Origin: an uncultured Odoribacter sp.
GTDB lineage: Bacteria; Bacteroidota; Bacteroidia; Bacteroidales; Marinifilaceae
Direction: 5' to 3'
Assembly (NCBI GenBank): GCA_944321145.1
Contig: CALUKF010000004.1
Coordinates: 1-64,000, forward strand
DNA length: 64,000 bases
Part shown: positions 9,002-49,771 of the stretch, piece by piece
How positions within the stretch are numbered: the first letter of the stretch is position 1
Layout of the letters: each line of letters begins with the position of its first letter
Notes under the pieces: generated by a model
Seen by the model: only the letters and a program-made list of their open reading frames with translations
What the model was told of the DNA's origin: nothing
Databases searched by the model: none
Made by a program: the position numbers and the translations under genes

Positions 9002-9276
9002 CCGACAATAGTCTGAAACCTGTCCTACACCCGTGTAAAACAGGGTCAGAACCTATATTTGAGTTACACTTAACTTACACTTGAGTTACATTTCATTTAG
9101 AGATAAACCTATTCTCAACCTATTATAAACCTATTATTATCCTATTCCAATATAATAAGAATAGGTCAAAAATAGATTTTCATATAAATATCCTGTAACT
9201 GGAGTGTAATTTATATGTAACGAAAATGTAACTTAAATATGGGCTCTAACTATGCCTTGCTGCTGTTTTGGACAGG
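9002..9276 (-). repeat. 11-bp-unit palindromic array, copy 1
   Basis: Read on the minus strand this intergenic block divides into 25 consecutive 11-mers, for example GTTACATATAA, TAGGTTTATAA TAGGTTGAGAA TAGGTTTATCT, and GTAACTCAAGT GTAAGTTAAGT GTAACTCAAAT. It matches the arrays at 27431-27716 and 49519-49771 unit for unit. The two halves are an imperfect palindrome: GTTACA units on one side face TGTAAC units on the other. The conserved apex CCTATTC/GAATAGG forms a hairpin. Outer arms 9028-9043 and 9263-9278 also pair. It fills most of the 594-nt gap 8861-9454. No protein coding is evident. Confidence 0.9.
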
Positions 9277-9312
9277 TGCGGGCACAGAGTTCATGTTAGC
9301 GGGCGGGGAAAC

Positions 9313-9892: not shown

Positions 9893-11836
9893 TTATATTT
9901 TAATCATTCGTTGTATCCTTACCGCATTCAGCACTGCCAGCAACGCCACGCCCACATCCGCAAACACGGCCTCCCACATCGTCGCCATCCCCCATGCGCC
10001 CAACAGCAACACTGCAAATTTCACGCCAAACGCCAACACGATGTTCTGCCACACCACCCGCAACGTCACCCGTCCCGCACGCACCGCCGTCGCCACCCGC
10101 GAAGGCTGGTCTGTCTGGATGACCACATCCGCCGTTTCAATCGCCGCATCGCTGCCCAAACCGCCCATGGCAATCCCCACATCACTCAACGCCAATACAG
10201 GAGCATCGTTCATCCCGTCCCCCACAAACGCCACCCGTCTCCCTGCCTCGCGCAATGCCTCTATATGTGCCACCTTCCCCTCCGGCAGCAAATCGCCGTA
10301 TGCCGCCGCCACACCCACACGCGTCGCAAATGCCGACACAATGGCTTGCCTGTCGCCCGACAGGATTTCCACCTCCCGGATGCCCGCTACCTTCAAGTCT
10401 GCCACTGCCTGCACCGCGTCATCTTTCAAGCAATCCGCCAAAAGCAAATACCCCGCATACTGTCCCTCCACGGCACATGCCACCATCGTACCTTCTCCAG
10501 TCCGCAATTCCGCAGGATACGCCACCCCATAATTTTCCAGCAGGCGCGTATTGCCCGCCAGCACTTCTTTCCCTCCGACCTTAGCCCGCAAGCCGCAGCC
10601 TGCCACTTCCTCTACATCCGCCACTTCCTCCACACGAATGCCTTGCCTCTCGGCATAACGGGCAACAGCCCGCGCAATCGGGTGTGTGCTATGCTGTTCC
10701 GAAGCCGCCACCCATGCCACGACCTCTCCGGCAGTTATTCCCCCGGTAGTCTCCACCGCCTGCACCTCAAAAACACCCTTCGTCAATGTCCCCGTCTTAT
10801 CGAATACCACCGTATCGATTTTCGTAATGGCATGCAAATAATTCCCGCCTTTGAACAATACCCCCAACCGCGAAGCCGCACCGATGCCGCTAAAATACCC
10901 CAACGGGATGCTCACCACCAACGCGCAAGGGCACGAAATCACCAAGAAAACCAACGCCCGGTACAACCACTCGCTGACCTCAAACACAAAACCGGCATGC
11001 GCCAACGACCACACCCACGGCACCACGACAATCAGCACTGCCAATCCGAACACCGCCGGCGTATACACCCGTGCAAACTTTCGGATAAACAATTCCGCCG
11101 GCGCTTTCCGTTCCGACGCATGCTCCACCATTTCCAATATCCGCGACAAAGCACTCTCCGCATACGGGCGAGTCACCTGCATGCGTATGACCCGATCCGT
11201 CACAATCATGCCCGCCAACACCTCTTCGTCCTGCCGGATGGTGCGCGGCACGCTCTCGCCCGTCAACGCCGCCGTGTCAAAAGAGGCTTTCCCCTCTATC
11301 AGCGCCCCGTCCAAAGGCACCCGTCCGCCGGTCTTCACCTCAATTACTTCGCCCACCATCACCTCCTGGGGATGCACCGACCGCCATTCCCCTTCCCTCA
11401 AAACATCCACCGTTTCCGGACGCACATCCAACAAATCACTGATATTTCGCTTTGCACGGTCTACTGCCCGTTCCTGAAACGCCTCACCAATGGAGTAAAA
11501 CAACATCACCGCCACCGCTTCCGGATACTCCCCAATGCCCAACGCCCCCACAGAAGCCAGCGACATCAGCGTAAACTCATTAAACACATCCCCCTTCCGG
11601 ATTTCTCCCCACGCCTCCTTCCATACCTGCAACCCCACCGGCAAATAAGCCAGCACATACCACGCAAACTCCACTCCACCTTGGAAAAAACCGACCCCTT
11701 CCACATTCCCCAACACCAAACCCGCCGCCAACATTGCCAACGACACTCCCATCCGTCCCCCAAAAATCCGTTCCCTTCCCCCCTTTCCGCAACAGCCCGC
11801 AGCATGCTTCCGATTTTGAGTACAACAACGTTCCAT
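9893..11836 (-). CDS. P1B-type heavy-metal-transporting ATPase (Zn/Cd/Pb class)
   Basis: This inner-membrane pump exports divalent metals. It is 647 residues from 11836 (MERCCTQNRKHAAGCC); the frame to 11926 adds promoter sequence. Motifs: TGES actuator loop, membrane CPC at about residues 302-304 (ISCPCALVVSIPLGYF), phosphorylation site DKTGT with Asp346, the HP motif in STHPIARAV, and GDGMNDAP. The last helices carry the Lys and Asp (GVKFAVLL, FADVGVALL) expected of the P1B-2 zinc/cadmium/lead group. It lacks a standard N-terminal HMA domain but has two Cys-Cys pairs at residues 4-5 and 15-16 that could bind metal. A fur-like gene follows directly, and an 11-bp array lies just upstream. Confidence 0.93.
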   Translation of the reverse strand: MERCCTQNRKHAAGCCGKGGRERIFGGRMGVSLAMLAAGLVLGNVEGVGFFQGGVEFAWYVLAYLPVGLQVWKEAWGEIRKGDVFNEFTLMSLASVGALGIGEYPEAVAVMLFYSIGEAFQERAVDRAKRNISDLLDVRPETVDVLREGEWRSVHPQEVMVGEVIEVKTGGRVPLDGALIEGKASFDTAALTGESVPRTIRQDEEVLAGMIVTDRVIRMQVTRPYAESALSRILEMVEHASERKAPAELFIRKFARVYTPAVFGLAVLIVVVPWVWSLAHAGFVFEVSEWLYRALVFLVISCPCALVVSIPLGYFSGIGAASRLGVLFKGGNYLHAITKIDTVVFDKTGTLTKGVFEVQAVETTGGITAGEVVAWVAASEQHSTHPIARAVARYAERQGIRVEEVADVEEVAGCGLRAKVGGKEVLAGNTRLLENYGVAYPAELRTGEGTMVACAVEGQYAGYLLLADCLKDDAVQAVADLKVAGIREVEILSGDRQAIVSAFATRVGVAAAYGDLLPEGKVAHIEALREAGRRVAFVGDGMNDAPVLALSDVGIAMGGLGSDAAIETADVVIQTDQPSRVATAVRAGRVTLRVVWQNIVLAFGVKFAVLLLGAWGMATMWEAVFADVGVALLAVLNAVRIQRMIKI

Positions 11837-11880: not shown

Positions 11881-12045
11881 CTTGCAATCCGGTTGCAAAT
11901 CCATATCCTCCCCCTATCCTCCCCATCCCTATGGCACACCTGTTCCACTACTGTTCCGCAGCTGTTGGCTTTCCTAAGGCAACAGCTAGCCAGCAGATCC
12001 GAAACAGCAGCGAAACAGGTACAAGGGAAGTCGACAGAAACTACA
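11881..12045. repeat. 11-bp-unit palindromic array of different sequence (array B)
   Basis: The gap between the ATPase gene and the chaN-like gene divides into fifteen 11-mers. Examples: CTTGCAATCCG GTTGCAAATCC; ATATCCTCCCC CTATCCTCCCC; ACACCTGTTCC ACTACTGTTCC GCAGCTGTTGG. After a central CTTTCCTAAGG come inverted units CAACAGCTAGC, CAGCAGATCCG, AAACAGCAGCG, AAACAGGTACA. The sequence is unrelated to the 9002/27431/49519 family but has the same period and mirror layout. It abuts the ATPase promoter (TACCTTTG on the minus strand, 11863-11870) and ends at the chaN stop. Confidence 0.75.
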
Positions 12046-12049
12046 AGGA

Positions 12050-12934
12050 TTAATAGCTCGTCACCATAGTCTCCGGAATACAGACATAAAAGTCCGCCCG
12101 CCCCTTCTGTTCCTCGCCCAAACGCGAAATGTCTTCCGCCCGGAGGAAAGTAACAGTGGCAAGCGTGGTCTCCGGACGGTATTTCAAAAGGTAAGGAATT
12201 ATCCCCTCCTTGAAGTCCGAGTGGTAACTACCGTTCAAATGCAGAAATTTCCCGTCCAGATGGCGGGAGATAAACCATGCCATCGTCGCGTCCTTCACGG
12301 CTTGCGCTTCCGCCAAAAGGCGCAAGTCGCCGGCAGTCTTTCCGCCCATCATCAGCATCATGCCAAACGCCTCGCGGCTTTTTCCCTCATCGTACTCAAA
12401 AGGAATCGGCAATGGGGCTATGTAACGCCGAGCTTCCTCCGAAAACGCCTCCAAAGCTTCCAGACCGCCATTCTTGACGCTGTTCGCATAACGGCGCGGG
12501 ACGTTGGTGGCAATGAAAGGAATGCCATGCTCCTTCGCCAGCCATACCACCGCCCGGTAATCAGTATAATAATTATCCCACAGGCGCGTCTCCGCCTCGA
12601 AACGGTCATCAGTAATCAGTCCTGCCATGTACTCGTCCAGAATCAACTGGTTGTCGCTCTCGAACATCTCCGCGCCAATTGTAAACTTTTTCCCGTGAAC
12701 CTCATAGAGCGAGCAAGCAATCTCATATTCCAACCAATGGGTAATGGGGCAGTTGTGCATCTCCCCGAGGAACACCACATCGTATTGCGTCAAACGGTCA
12801 ACCAATTCCCCATAGGTGATGACATTCCCCTCCTTATCAAACAAAGTGTAAGCAGGCTTCTCCTGCGCCCATACGCCAACGCTTAAGCTACAGACGAGGC
12901 AAAGCATAAATAACGGTTTCAATATACGTTTCAT
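12050..12934 (-). CDS. ChaN-like (DUF399, haem-binding-type) secreted protein
   Basis: This 294-residue protein begins with a signal peptide ending near VGVWAQEK. The body matches the ChaN/DUF399 family: VVFLGEMHNCPITHWLE near residue 55, GAEMFESDNQLILDEY, AKEHGIPFIATNVPRRYAN and AFGMMLMMGG. The Campylobacter ChaN homologue was shown to bind haem and was proposed to act in iron uptake; other relatives lie in the TIKI/EreA-like superfamily, so an enzymatic role is possible. Its start overlaps the M16 protease stop by 4 nt (ATGA), so it is translationally coupled as the last gene of the SusC operon. Haem binding is inferred. Confidence 0.82.
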   Translation of the reverse strand: MKRILKPLFMLCLVCSLSVGVWAQEKPAYTLFDKEGNVITYGELVDRLTQYDVVFLGEMHNCPITHWLEYEIACSLYEVHGKKFTIGAEMFESDNQLILDEYMAGLITDDRFEAETRLWDNYYTDYRAVVWLAKEHGIPFIATNVPRRYANSVKNGGLEALEAFSEEARRYIAPLPIPFEYDEGKSREAFGMMLMMGGKTAGDLRLLAEAQAVKDATMAWFISRHLDGKFLHLNGSYHSDFKEGIIPYLLKYRPETTLATVTFLRAEDISRLGEEQKGRADFYVCIPETMVTSY

Positions 12935-27290: not shown

Positions 27291-27430
27291 GCATCCGCAC
27301 GCCTGTACCCTCTCCCGCTTTCCCCCTCCAACAACCTCGCCATCCACCCGACCCGCCTCCCTCTCTTCCCCGTCCCCGCCCCTTTCTCCTGCAAATTTCC
27401 CCCTCCGCCAATCTAAATCCAGTTCCCGCA

Positions 27431-27716
27431 CCTATGCAAGGCAGCGGCAAGGCAGATGCAAAGCCCGTATTTAAGTTACATTTCCGTTACATATAAATTA
27501 CATTTTATTTACAGGTCAGATTTATTTCAACCCATCTTTGACCTATTCTTATTATATTGGAATAGGATAACAATAGGTTTATAATAGGTTGAGAATAGGT
27601 TTATCTCTAAATGAAATGTAACTCAACTGTAAGTTAAGTGTAACTCAAATATAGCTTCTGACCCTGCCTTGCACAGGTGTAGGACAGGTGTCGGACAGGT
27701 GTCGGGCAAGGGGACA
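27431..27716 (+). repeat. 11-bp-unit palindromic array, copy 2 (most complete)
   Basis: The block is exactly 26 consecutive 11-mers. Runs of like units are plain: CCTATGCAAGG CAGCGGCAAGG CAGATGCAAAG at the left; GTTACATTTCC GTTACATATAA; TAGGATAACAA TAGGTTTATAA TAGGTTGAGAA TAGGTTTATCT; and three tandem ACAGGTGT(A/C)GG at the right. The halves mirror each other, and arms 27429-27444 and 27664-27679 pair at 15 of 16 positions. The apex is CCTATTC/GAATAGG. It occupies the gap between the DUF5036-like and AAA genes. The pyrimidine-rich stretch 27291-27430 beside it shows only weak 11-bp periodicity and no gene. Confidence 0.92.
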
Positions 27717-37123: not shown

Positions 37124-37475
37124 ATGGAGGGTTTTGGGAGATTTTCCCTGGCGTTCCCTTCCGTTTTCTTTGCCTTTCTCTGCCTTTTTCTTCCTTTTCC
37201 ATCTCATCCACCTTCGCTTCCCTGCCTTTCCCCCTCCCCTCGGACAGGCAAAAATTTTTATCCTTGTTTTTTATAACGAGTCATCTACTATTTTTTAACG
37301 TTAATGACTCGTAAGTGAATCGGAGATGACTCGTAGATGATAGTCGGAAGGGACGGGGAAAGGTGCTGAACATGAGGAAGAAAGGAGGAATGTCGAATAT
37401 TGGGCTGATTTTTCCGATTTTTGGGGTTTTTTCCCTGTTTTTTGAGGTATTTTTCCCCCGTTTTTTTGAGGGAGT
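37124..37475. repeat. 11-bp-unit array with phased T-tracts (array D)
   Basis: The gap between hflX and the TlpA-like gene can be cut into 32 consecutive 11-mers in one register. Clear runs: CTTTGCCTTTC TCTGCCTTTTT CTTCCTTTTCC (37168-37200); GTTAATGACTC GTAAGTGAATC GGAGATGACTC GTAGATGATAG (37300-37343), whose inverse GAGTCATCTAC lies at 37278; and T-tract units at 37406-37471 (ATTTTTGGGGT, TTTTTCCCTGT, TTTTTGAGGTA, TTTTTCCCCCG). T-runs repeating every 11 bp should curve the DNA. It is not homologous in sequence to the other arrays. It ends where an IS3 remnant begins. No protein gene is convincing here. Confidence 0.75.
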
Positions 37476-49392: not shown

Positions 49393-49518
49393 ATATTGCC
49401 CATAGTCTTTAGTTTCAAATCCTGCACTAAGGTATGAAATATCTGCAAGACAATCAACTCCTGCCAAGGAAAAACTTGTTACACCCTTGCAGCAGACACC
49501 GCCGGTACCCGCTCTGCC

Positions 49519-49771
49519 CCTGTGCAAGGCGGCGGCAAGGCAGGTGCAAAGCCCGTATTTGGGTTACATTTTAGTTACACATAAATTACATTTCATTTAC
49601 AGATTGCATTTATTTCAACCTATCTTTGACCTATTCTTATTATATTGGAATAGGATGATAATAGGTTGAGAATAGGTTTATCTCTAAATGAAGTGTAACG
49701 TAACTCTAACTCAAGTGTAACAGAAATACGGGTTGAACTGCGGTCTTGACGCTGTCCAACCCGTGTGCAAG
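49519..49771 (+). repeat. 11-bp-unit palindromic array, copy 3 (one unit shorter in the core)
   Basis: The block is 23 consecutive 11-mers aligned with copy 2: CCTGTGCAAGG CGGCGGCAAGG CAGGTGCAAAG, then GTTACATTTTA GTTACACATAA ATTACATTTCA, ACCTATCTTTG ACCTATTCTTA TTATATTGGAA, TAGGATGATAA TAGGTTGAGAA TAGGTTTATCT. Exactly one unit (TAGGTTTATAA of copies 1 and 2) is absent, with the register kept. Near the ends CCCGTATTT (49552-49560) faces AAATACGGG (49724-49732). The remaining gap to murF-alr (49772-49874) holds only short GC-rich hairpins (CCCCC-GAA-GGGGG) and no gene. Confidence 0.9.

Follow-up and report, generated by a model that had tools for sequence, protein, structure and literature searches.

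Why should stretches of intergenic DNA that do not align obey the same geometry? The question arises at positions 11881-12045 of the window (the whole 64,000-nucleotide stretch analysed here), where a row of 11-bp words, here called array B, lies between the genes for a P1B-type ATPase and a ChaN-like lipoprotein, running as one set of words up to a central dyad and as reverse-complement words beyond it. An earlier interpretation made from the letters alone (the sequence-only reading) had counted fifteen units there, judged them unrelated in sequence to another array of the same layout, and proposed that a shared period and mirror arrangement imply a process or a binding rule, and not simple copying of one element. 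Array B is, in our view, best explained as a member of a superfamily of dispersed intergenic elements within one Odoribacter clade, shaped by copying as well as by a common rule.

The 11-mers are present as described. Within array B, 80 of 154 positions (52%) are identical at lag 11, against 39.9±5.4 and a maximum of 59 in 5000 dinucleotide shuffles, where the best identity at any lag from 5 to 22 never exceeded 44%. Lag 11 is prominent among lags 3-39, and the mirror score reaches z = 9.3. Framed from the dyad, the left words include TGTTCCACTAC TGTTCCGCAGC TGTTGGCTTTC, and the right words, once reverse-complemented, TGTTTCGCTGC TGTTTCGGATC TGCTGGCTAGC TGTTGCCTTAG. Four places in the 64-kb window attain this level of lag-11 identity, the other three being arrays of a second family, A; a third family is also represented (Table 1). 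Separate from the third-family array but adjoining it is a 21-bp repeat, CCGTTTTTTGAGGTTTTTTCC, in 2.6 copies (window 37414-37471).

Table 1. Arrays in the window and the genes that flank array B
Feature	Position	Strand	Remarks
Array B element	11900..12031	.	12 units of 11 bp kept across copies; dyad after base 11973
Array B left arm	11897..11973	.	pyrimidine-rich; words such as TGTTCCGCAGC
Array B right arm	11974..12050	.	reverse-complement words; reaches the ChaN-like stop codon
ChaN-like lipoprotein gene, flanks array B	12050..12934	-	name from the sequence-only reading; relatives found by sequence
P1B-type ATPase gene, flanks array B	9893..11836	-	CPC and DKTGT motifs in translation; predicted start ~11836
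Array A copy 1	9016..9279	.	~24 units; CCTATT and TTACA words; dyad after base 9147
Array A copy 2	27422..27705	.	reverse orientation; dyad after base 27559
Array A copy 3	49516..49734	.	reverse orientation; shorter by exactly one 11-bp unit; dyad after base 49647
Third-family array	37245..37355	.	word ATGACTCGTAG; dyad after base 37299 (automatic) or 37305 (motif scan), exact centre uncertain

Array B is not unique. A DNA search of its own genome, a 3.15-Mb draft of a gut bacterium in 117 contigs, returned ~15 relatives of B at 68-85% identity and ~20 dispersed copies of A, and even an array that seemed to be single-copy proved to have relatives. The copies share a consistent length and sit in unrelated flanks. 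Judged by similarity, the B element comprises 12 units, whilst A extends for 12-13 units on each side of its centre with background beyond; of the fifteen units originally counted in B, all can be read as 11-mers, but only the 12 at ~11900-12031 are conserved between copies and the outer ones are not. In both families similarity fades over several units with no sharp end, and the end words of A are inverted but degenerate. One copy of A lies in two halves ~13 kb apart (C27:10212-10333, locus L055, and C27:23183-23278, locus L056), whose AT-rich flanks resemble terminal inverted repeats (TAATTAA...TTACAT); here a mobile element has apparently inserted into the middle of an array.

Within an element the spacing is strict. 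Sixteen copies of B align across ~125 columns with gaps confined to the ends, and their internal spacing is nearly constant, one copy carrying 2 extra bases in its outer part. In A, two internal anchors stand 58 bp apart in every measurable copy except one (W3), in which the distance is 47, exactly one unit less. The same A and B copies have accumulated ~650 substitutions. Change also comes in larger pieces: single copies show whole-unit losses and local duplications of units, and the spacer words of B appear to have moved in blocks from copy to copy and from arm to arm. Cores in the right arm of A hardly vary, whereas variability in its spacers reaches up to 50%.

How general is this architecture? 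A lag-11 scan covering 853 kb, or 27% of the genome, found 36 places at or above the threshold of 41/77 matches, compared with 0-2 places for control lags 8, 10, 13, 16 and 17, and 7 for lag 14. Forty arrays at the clustering threshold fell into 18 alignable sequence clusters, whose independence was judged by blastn only, such that an old common ancestry of clusters is possible. A mirror z above 3 was found in 32 of the 40 (80%), against 12% of 134 control intergenic regions; dyads were placed automatically by complementarity and are uncertain where the mirror is weak. All but one of the 40 are intergenic, in divergent (14), tandem (13) and convergent (10) contexts with 2 at sequence edges, as judged from genes called with a simple codon-usage script. 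By extrapolation from the 27% covered, we estimate that the whole genome holds ~150-200 arrays. The 72 genes scanned beside the 40 arrays are an ordinary, varied set that includes many housekeeping genes, with no enrichment of transposases, and the ParM/ParR-type family is absent from the top 25 families that they matched; ECF sigma factors account for 5 of the 72, seemingly above expectation. A GGGGGGTAAC-type repeat (locus L073, 18080-18170) gives a lag-11 peak within an open reading frame, has no mirror layout, and is probably unrelated to the arrays.

Beneath the clusters that do not align lies a common rule. In every one of the 32 mirror arrays the 5' arm is rich in pyrimidines and the 3' arm in purines (mean difference 0.24), compared with 46% positive and a mean of 0 in controls; 13 of 17 arrays in other species show the same polarity. 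Cytosine exceeds guanine in the left arm of 36 of the 40 arrays, and guanine exceeds cytosine in the right arm of 33. The GC oscillation is phase-locked to the dyad across 18 clusters from four species (Rayleigh R 0.79, p 1.3e-5; the analysis was repeated with half-integer centres), with its peak at |d| 6.2 mod 11 from the dyad. When 20 clusters are averaged with equal weight and read toward the dyad, a degenerate unit emerges, T-t-C-T-C-C-r-a-t-t-Y, carrying 1.81 bits of information against 0.87±0.09 after random rotation of the clusters (maximum 1.26 in 5000). Its z is 10.7 at period 11 and 1.2-5.6 at periods 9, 10, 12 and 13, and is 7.5 both when the A, A', B and TTAGAC clusters are left aside and when the source genome is taken alone. 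The motif also predicts clusters on which it was not built: for 16 of 20, the held-out dyad scores within the top 1% of ±3 kb, and frequently no other position scores better. This ranking is partly due to arm polarity alone, while the rotation test isolates phase.

Scanning the 853 kb with this motif gave 49 hits at score 18, all but one of them intergenic. Among those absent from the lag-11 list, five have a mirror identity of 0.55-0.69, where the motif by itself would give 0.31, and resemble additional arrays; most of the remaining new hits lack mirror identity and were treated as chance. Short mirror elements of another family, TTCTCCGGACAT...CCCGTGGTTCCAACCACGG...TGGAGAA, occur at L060 5691, L073 5967, L076 3595, L078 5704 and L090 13068; four of these five were found by the motif scan only and have low lag-11 scores.

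The proposal that such arrays share period and mirror layout without shared sequence therefore needs some adjustment. Period and mirror are common to non-aligning clusters far above chance, but because a degenerate, dyad-locked 11-bp motif is common to these clusters, the absence of shared sequence is true of alignable sequence only. Likewise, simple copying does account for arrays within families (~20 of A, ~15 of B). The idea of a binding rule, with a putative binder, has fared largely well, insofar as a rule taken from some clusters predicts others.

The trait is limited to a clade: arrays are dense in the source genome and its relative G001, sparse in G005, and rare or absent in the other sampled Odoribacter. 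From samples of 60-240 kb per relative, with the G001 contigs partly chosen for hits to A, the density of hits to the motif at score 20 is, per 100 kb, 4.3 in the source genome, 6.5 in G001 and 2.1 in G005, with none in the sampled G002, G006, G007, G003/4 and G012, and 0.2 in four genomes of other genera. Lag-11 mirror arrays are clear in G000, G001 and G005, and one was seen in G006. B itself was found only in the source genome among the 40 genomes searched, and the flanks of the ChaN locus in 80 other genomes show no lag-11 excess. Turnover is evident between the source genome and G001 (73-87% identity): one A locus is common to both but with species-specific words, one site is occupied by B in one of the two and by A' in its relative, and three arrays occur in just a single species (one of them lies at a contig end, making for a weak comparison). 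Among viral contigs, A had no matches, and two matches to a B pattern were taken as chance.

What, then, might maintain this geometry? We tentatively suggest, at somewhat less than an even chance, that the arrays are phased, dyad-symmetric platforms, dispersed in a BIME- or MITE-like manner, for a putative oligomeric or DNA-wrapping protein. Helical spacing, phase lock to the dyad, arm polarity and a degenerate unit together lead us to infer a symmetric complex of oriented, cooperative monomers on double-stranded DNA. Each element would consist of asymmetric, degenerate 11-bp sites, head-to-tail within each arm and inverted around the dyad, all about one helical turn apart, and the protein would bind them cooperatively, with one subunit per turn and both arms directed toward the dyad. 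Selection on the protein-DNA complex would maintain the spacing and the degenerate motif, whilst the exact word of each family would be free to drift, with unit-level slippage or conversion, together with element copying, homogenising it. The most likely function would be local organisation of the chromosome or of supercoils, or insulation, at the boundaries of transcription units, comparable to that of BIMEs. Counting against such a platform, the centre-left 44 bp of A show no variation in either spacers or cores, where plain selection on cores predicts otherwise. Core conservation could moreover be mimicked by the shuffling of units between identical cores, and the shared motif could partly reflect ancestry, as the clusters may be old homologues.

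Several other explanations deserve consideration. It is unlikely, if conceivable, that the arrays are non-autonomous, MITE-like mobile elements whose phased sites bind a transposase or recombinase, with any host function incidental; the dispersal of units of consistent length into unrelated flanks, their gain and loss between species, the finding of different families at one site and the inverted words at the ends of A would all fit, yet the edges have no sharp end but fade across several units, the neighbouring genes are ordinary, and no target duplication was seen at the presence-absence sites, few of which are comparable and whose flanks are too diverged to decide. As for a candidate mobiliser, the sole Y1-transposase (RAYT-like) gene found in the source genome (L031, C105:2227-2769, minus strand) lies ~100 bp from a B copy, but is surrounded by palindromes of its own, GGATTTGCAATCC, which are unlike the arrays and rare elsewhere (5 in 853 kb), and no RAYT was found in the array-bearing G001, which makes RAYT mobilisation look unlikely. 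Another B copy (L032) also adjoins a GGATTTGCAATCC-type palindrome. That the arrays are gyrase sites seems to us distinctly unlikely. In E. coli the gyrase motif spans 130 bp and is symmetric, with a 10.75-bp GC periodicity in both flanks (PMC6379681); array B is likewise ~130 bp long, the arrays have a dyad-symmetric GC periodicity of ~11 bp, and their GC peak at 6.2 mod 11 compares with 7.2 in the Mu site. The Mu site, however, scores -26.7 against the array motif, which is no match, and its arms differ in phase (5.2 and 8.3), while the pSC101 tet site has little periodicity; A is twice too long, a readout of GC only would not explain the pyrimidine/purine polarity, and the enzyme is universal where the arrays are not.

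Transcription offers two further possibilities. Bidirectional Rho-dependent terminators, in which the 5' arm on each strand would serve as a rut site, richer in C than in G and with a cytosine every ~11 nt, we consider improbable. The composition and period of the arrays do fit the published rut rule of 78 nt, C>G and a cytosine every 11-13 nt (PMC6407284), rho is present, and 12 of 15 B copies follow a gene end in one orientation; but divergent genes flank 14 of 37 arrays, with tandem and convergent contexts also common, termination does not explain why the phase should be locked across the dyad, the conserved TTACA cores of A lack a YC dimer, and rho is equally present in all congeners, array-less ones included. 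A role as functional RNA hairpins, suggested by strong predicted hairpins and by a period equal to the 11 bp per turn of A-form RNA, looks on sequence grounds to be largely refuted, and we hold it to be extremely improbable: derived changes in the predicted pairs of A comprise 26 G-U, 27 A-C, 99 other and just 2 compensatory, B has only 8 consensus pairs and fold z-scores generally alike on both strands, and the orientation of A is independent of transcription. A G-U strand preference in such hairpins was rejected, the difference in folding energy between strands being equally large in controls, and Rfam returned only hairpin-like microRNA matches far below threshold. Finally, the arrays could be purely mutational, born of slippage at short direct repeats and quasi-palindrome correction and tolerated after loss of the hairpin nuclease SbcCD, which we regard as quite improbable. 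Whole-unit losses and local duplications are what it would produce, and SbcC and SbcD were not found in the source genome, G001 and G005 and are present in G002, G006 and G007, thereby tracking the arrays inside the genus. Against this, G006 has SbcCD together with one mirror array, a period of 11 in every family with a common motif and phase is left unexplained, and SbcD-negative genomes of other genera show no clear arrays, for which reason SbcCD loss was rejected as a sufficient cause; loss of MutS was also rejected, as MutS is present.

The platform reading can be taken further, in a form that we consider somewhat unlikely: one clade-specific, oligomeric DNA-binding protein with degenerate 11-bp specificity would read the ~150-200 dyad-symmetric arrays of each genome as a chromosome-organising system, tolerating rapid drift of the words in each array, hence many word families and one architecture. 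Intergenic repeat families are usually described sequence by sequence; here, non-aligning families under one quantitative rule of period, dyad, polarity and phase-locked motif point to a single physical reader. How could a genome-wide binding architecture persist while its words turn over? And is it gyrase or a new nucleoid factor that shapes domain boundaries in Bacteroidales?

Literature searches for arrays of this kind returned nothing matching, and comparison is therefore with systems that share some of their features. The parC site of plasmid R1 consists of 11-bp direct repeats bound by ParR. Like the arrays, it has direct repeats about one helical turn apart, and its binder oligomerises; unlike them, it is found on a plasmid next to its own partition operon, and is not dispersed, dyad-mirrored or chromosomal. 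The arrays share C>G in an arm and period 11 with rut sites, but differ in their mirror layout, in a phase lock that spans the dyad and in often lying between divergent genes. Strong gyrase sites (Mu SGS and the E. coli motif) resemble them in length, dyad symmetry, ~11-bp GC periodicity and degenerate sequence, although these sites are not built of repeated words, nor has a pyrimidine/purine polarity of their arms been described. Enterobacterial BIME-2 elements, themselves gyrase sites (PMC6379681), and REPs are likewise dispersed, intergenic, palindromic and present in many copies per genome; set beside REPs, which are palindromes of 20-40 bp (PMC3733652), the arrays differ in being 130-270 bp of 11-bp direct units mirrored at a dyad, with many word families and one motif. 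Within the Bacteroidales, the BrickBuilt MITE of Porphyromonas gingivalis, with 19 copies of a 23-nt tandem unit between leader and tail ends, dispersed, always intergenic and species-limited (PMC4596501), is likewise a tandem repeat inside a taxon-limited element, but the array unit is 11 bp with no fixed leader or tail, and BrickBuilt is not described as a multi-family, mirrored 11-bp array. Whilst their anatomy, as tested, fits neither REP/BIME nor BrickBuilt, and not clearly a MITE, the arrays are, in kind, dispersed intergenic palindromic repeats.
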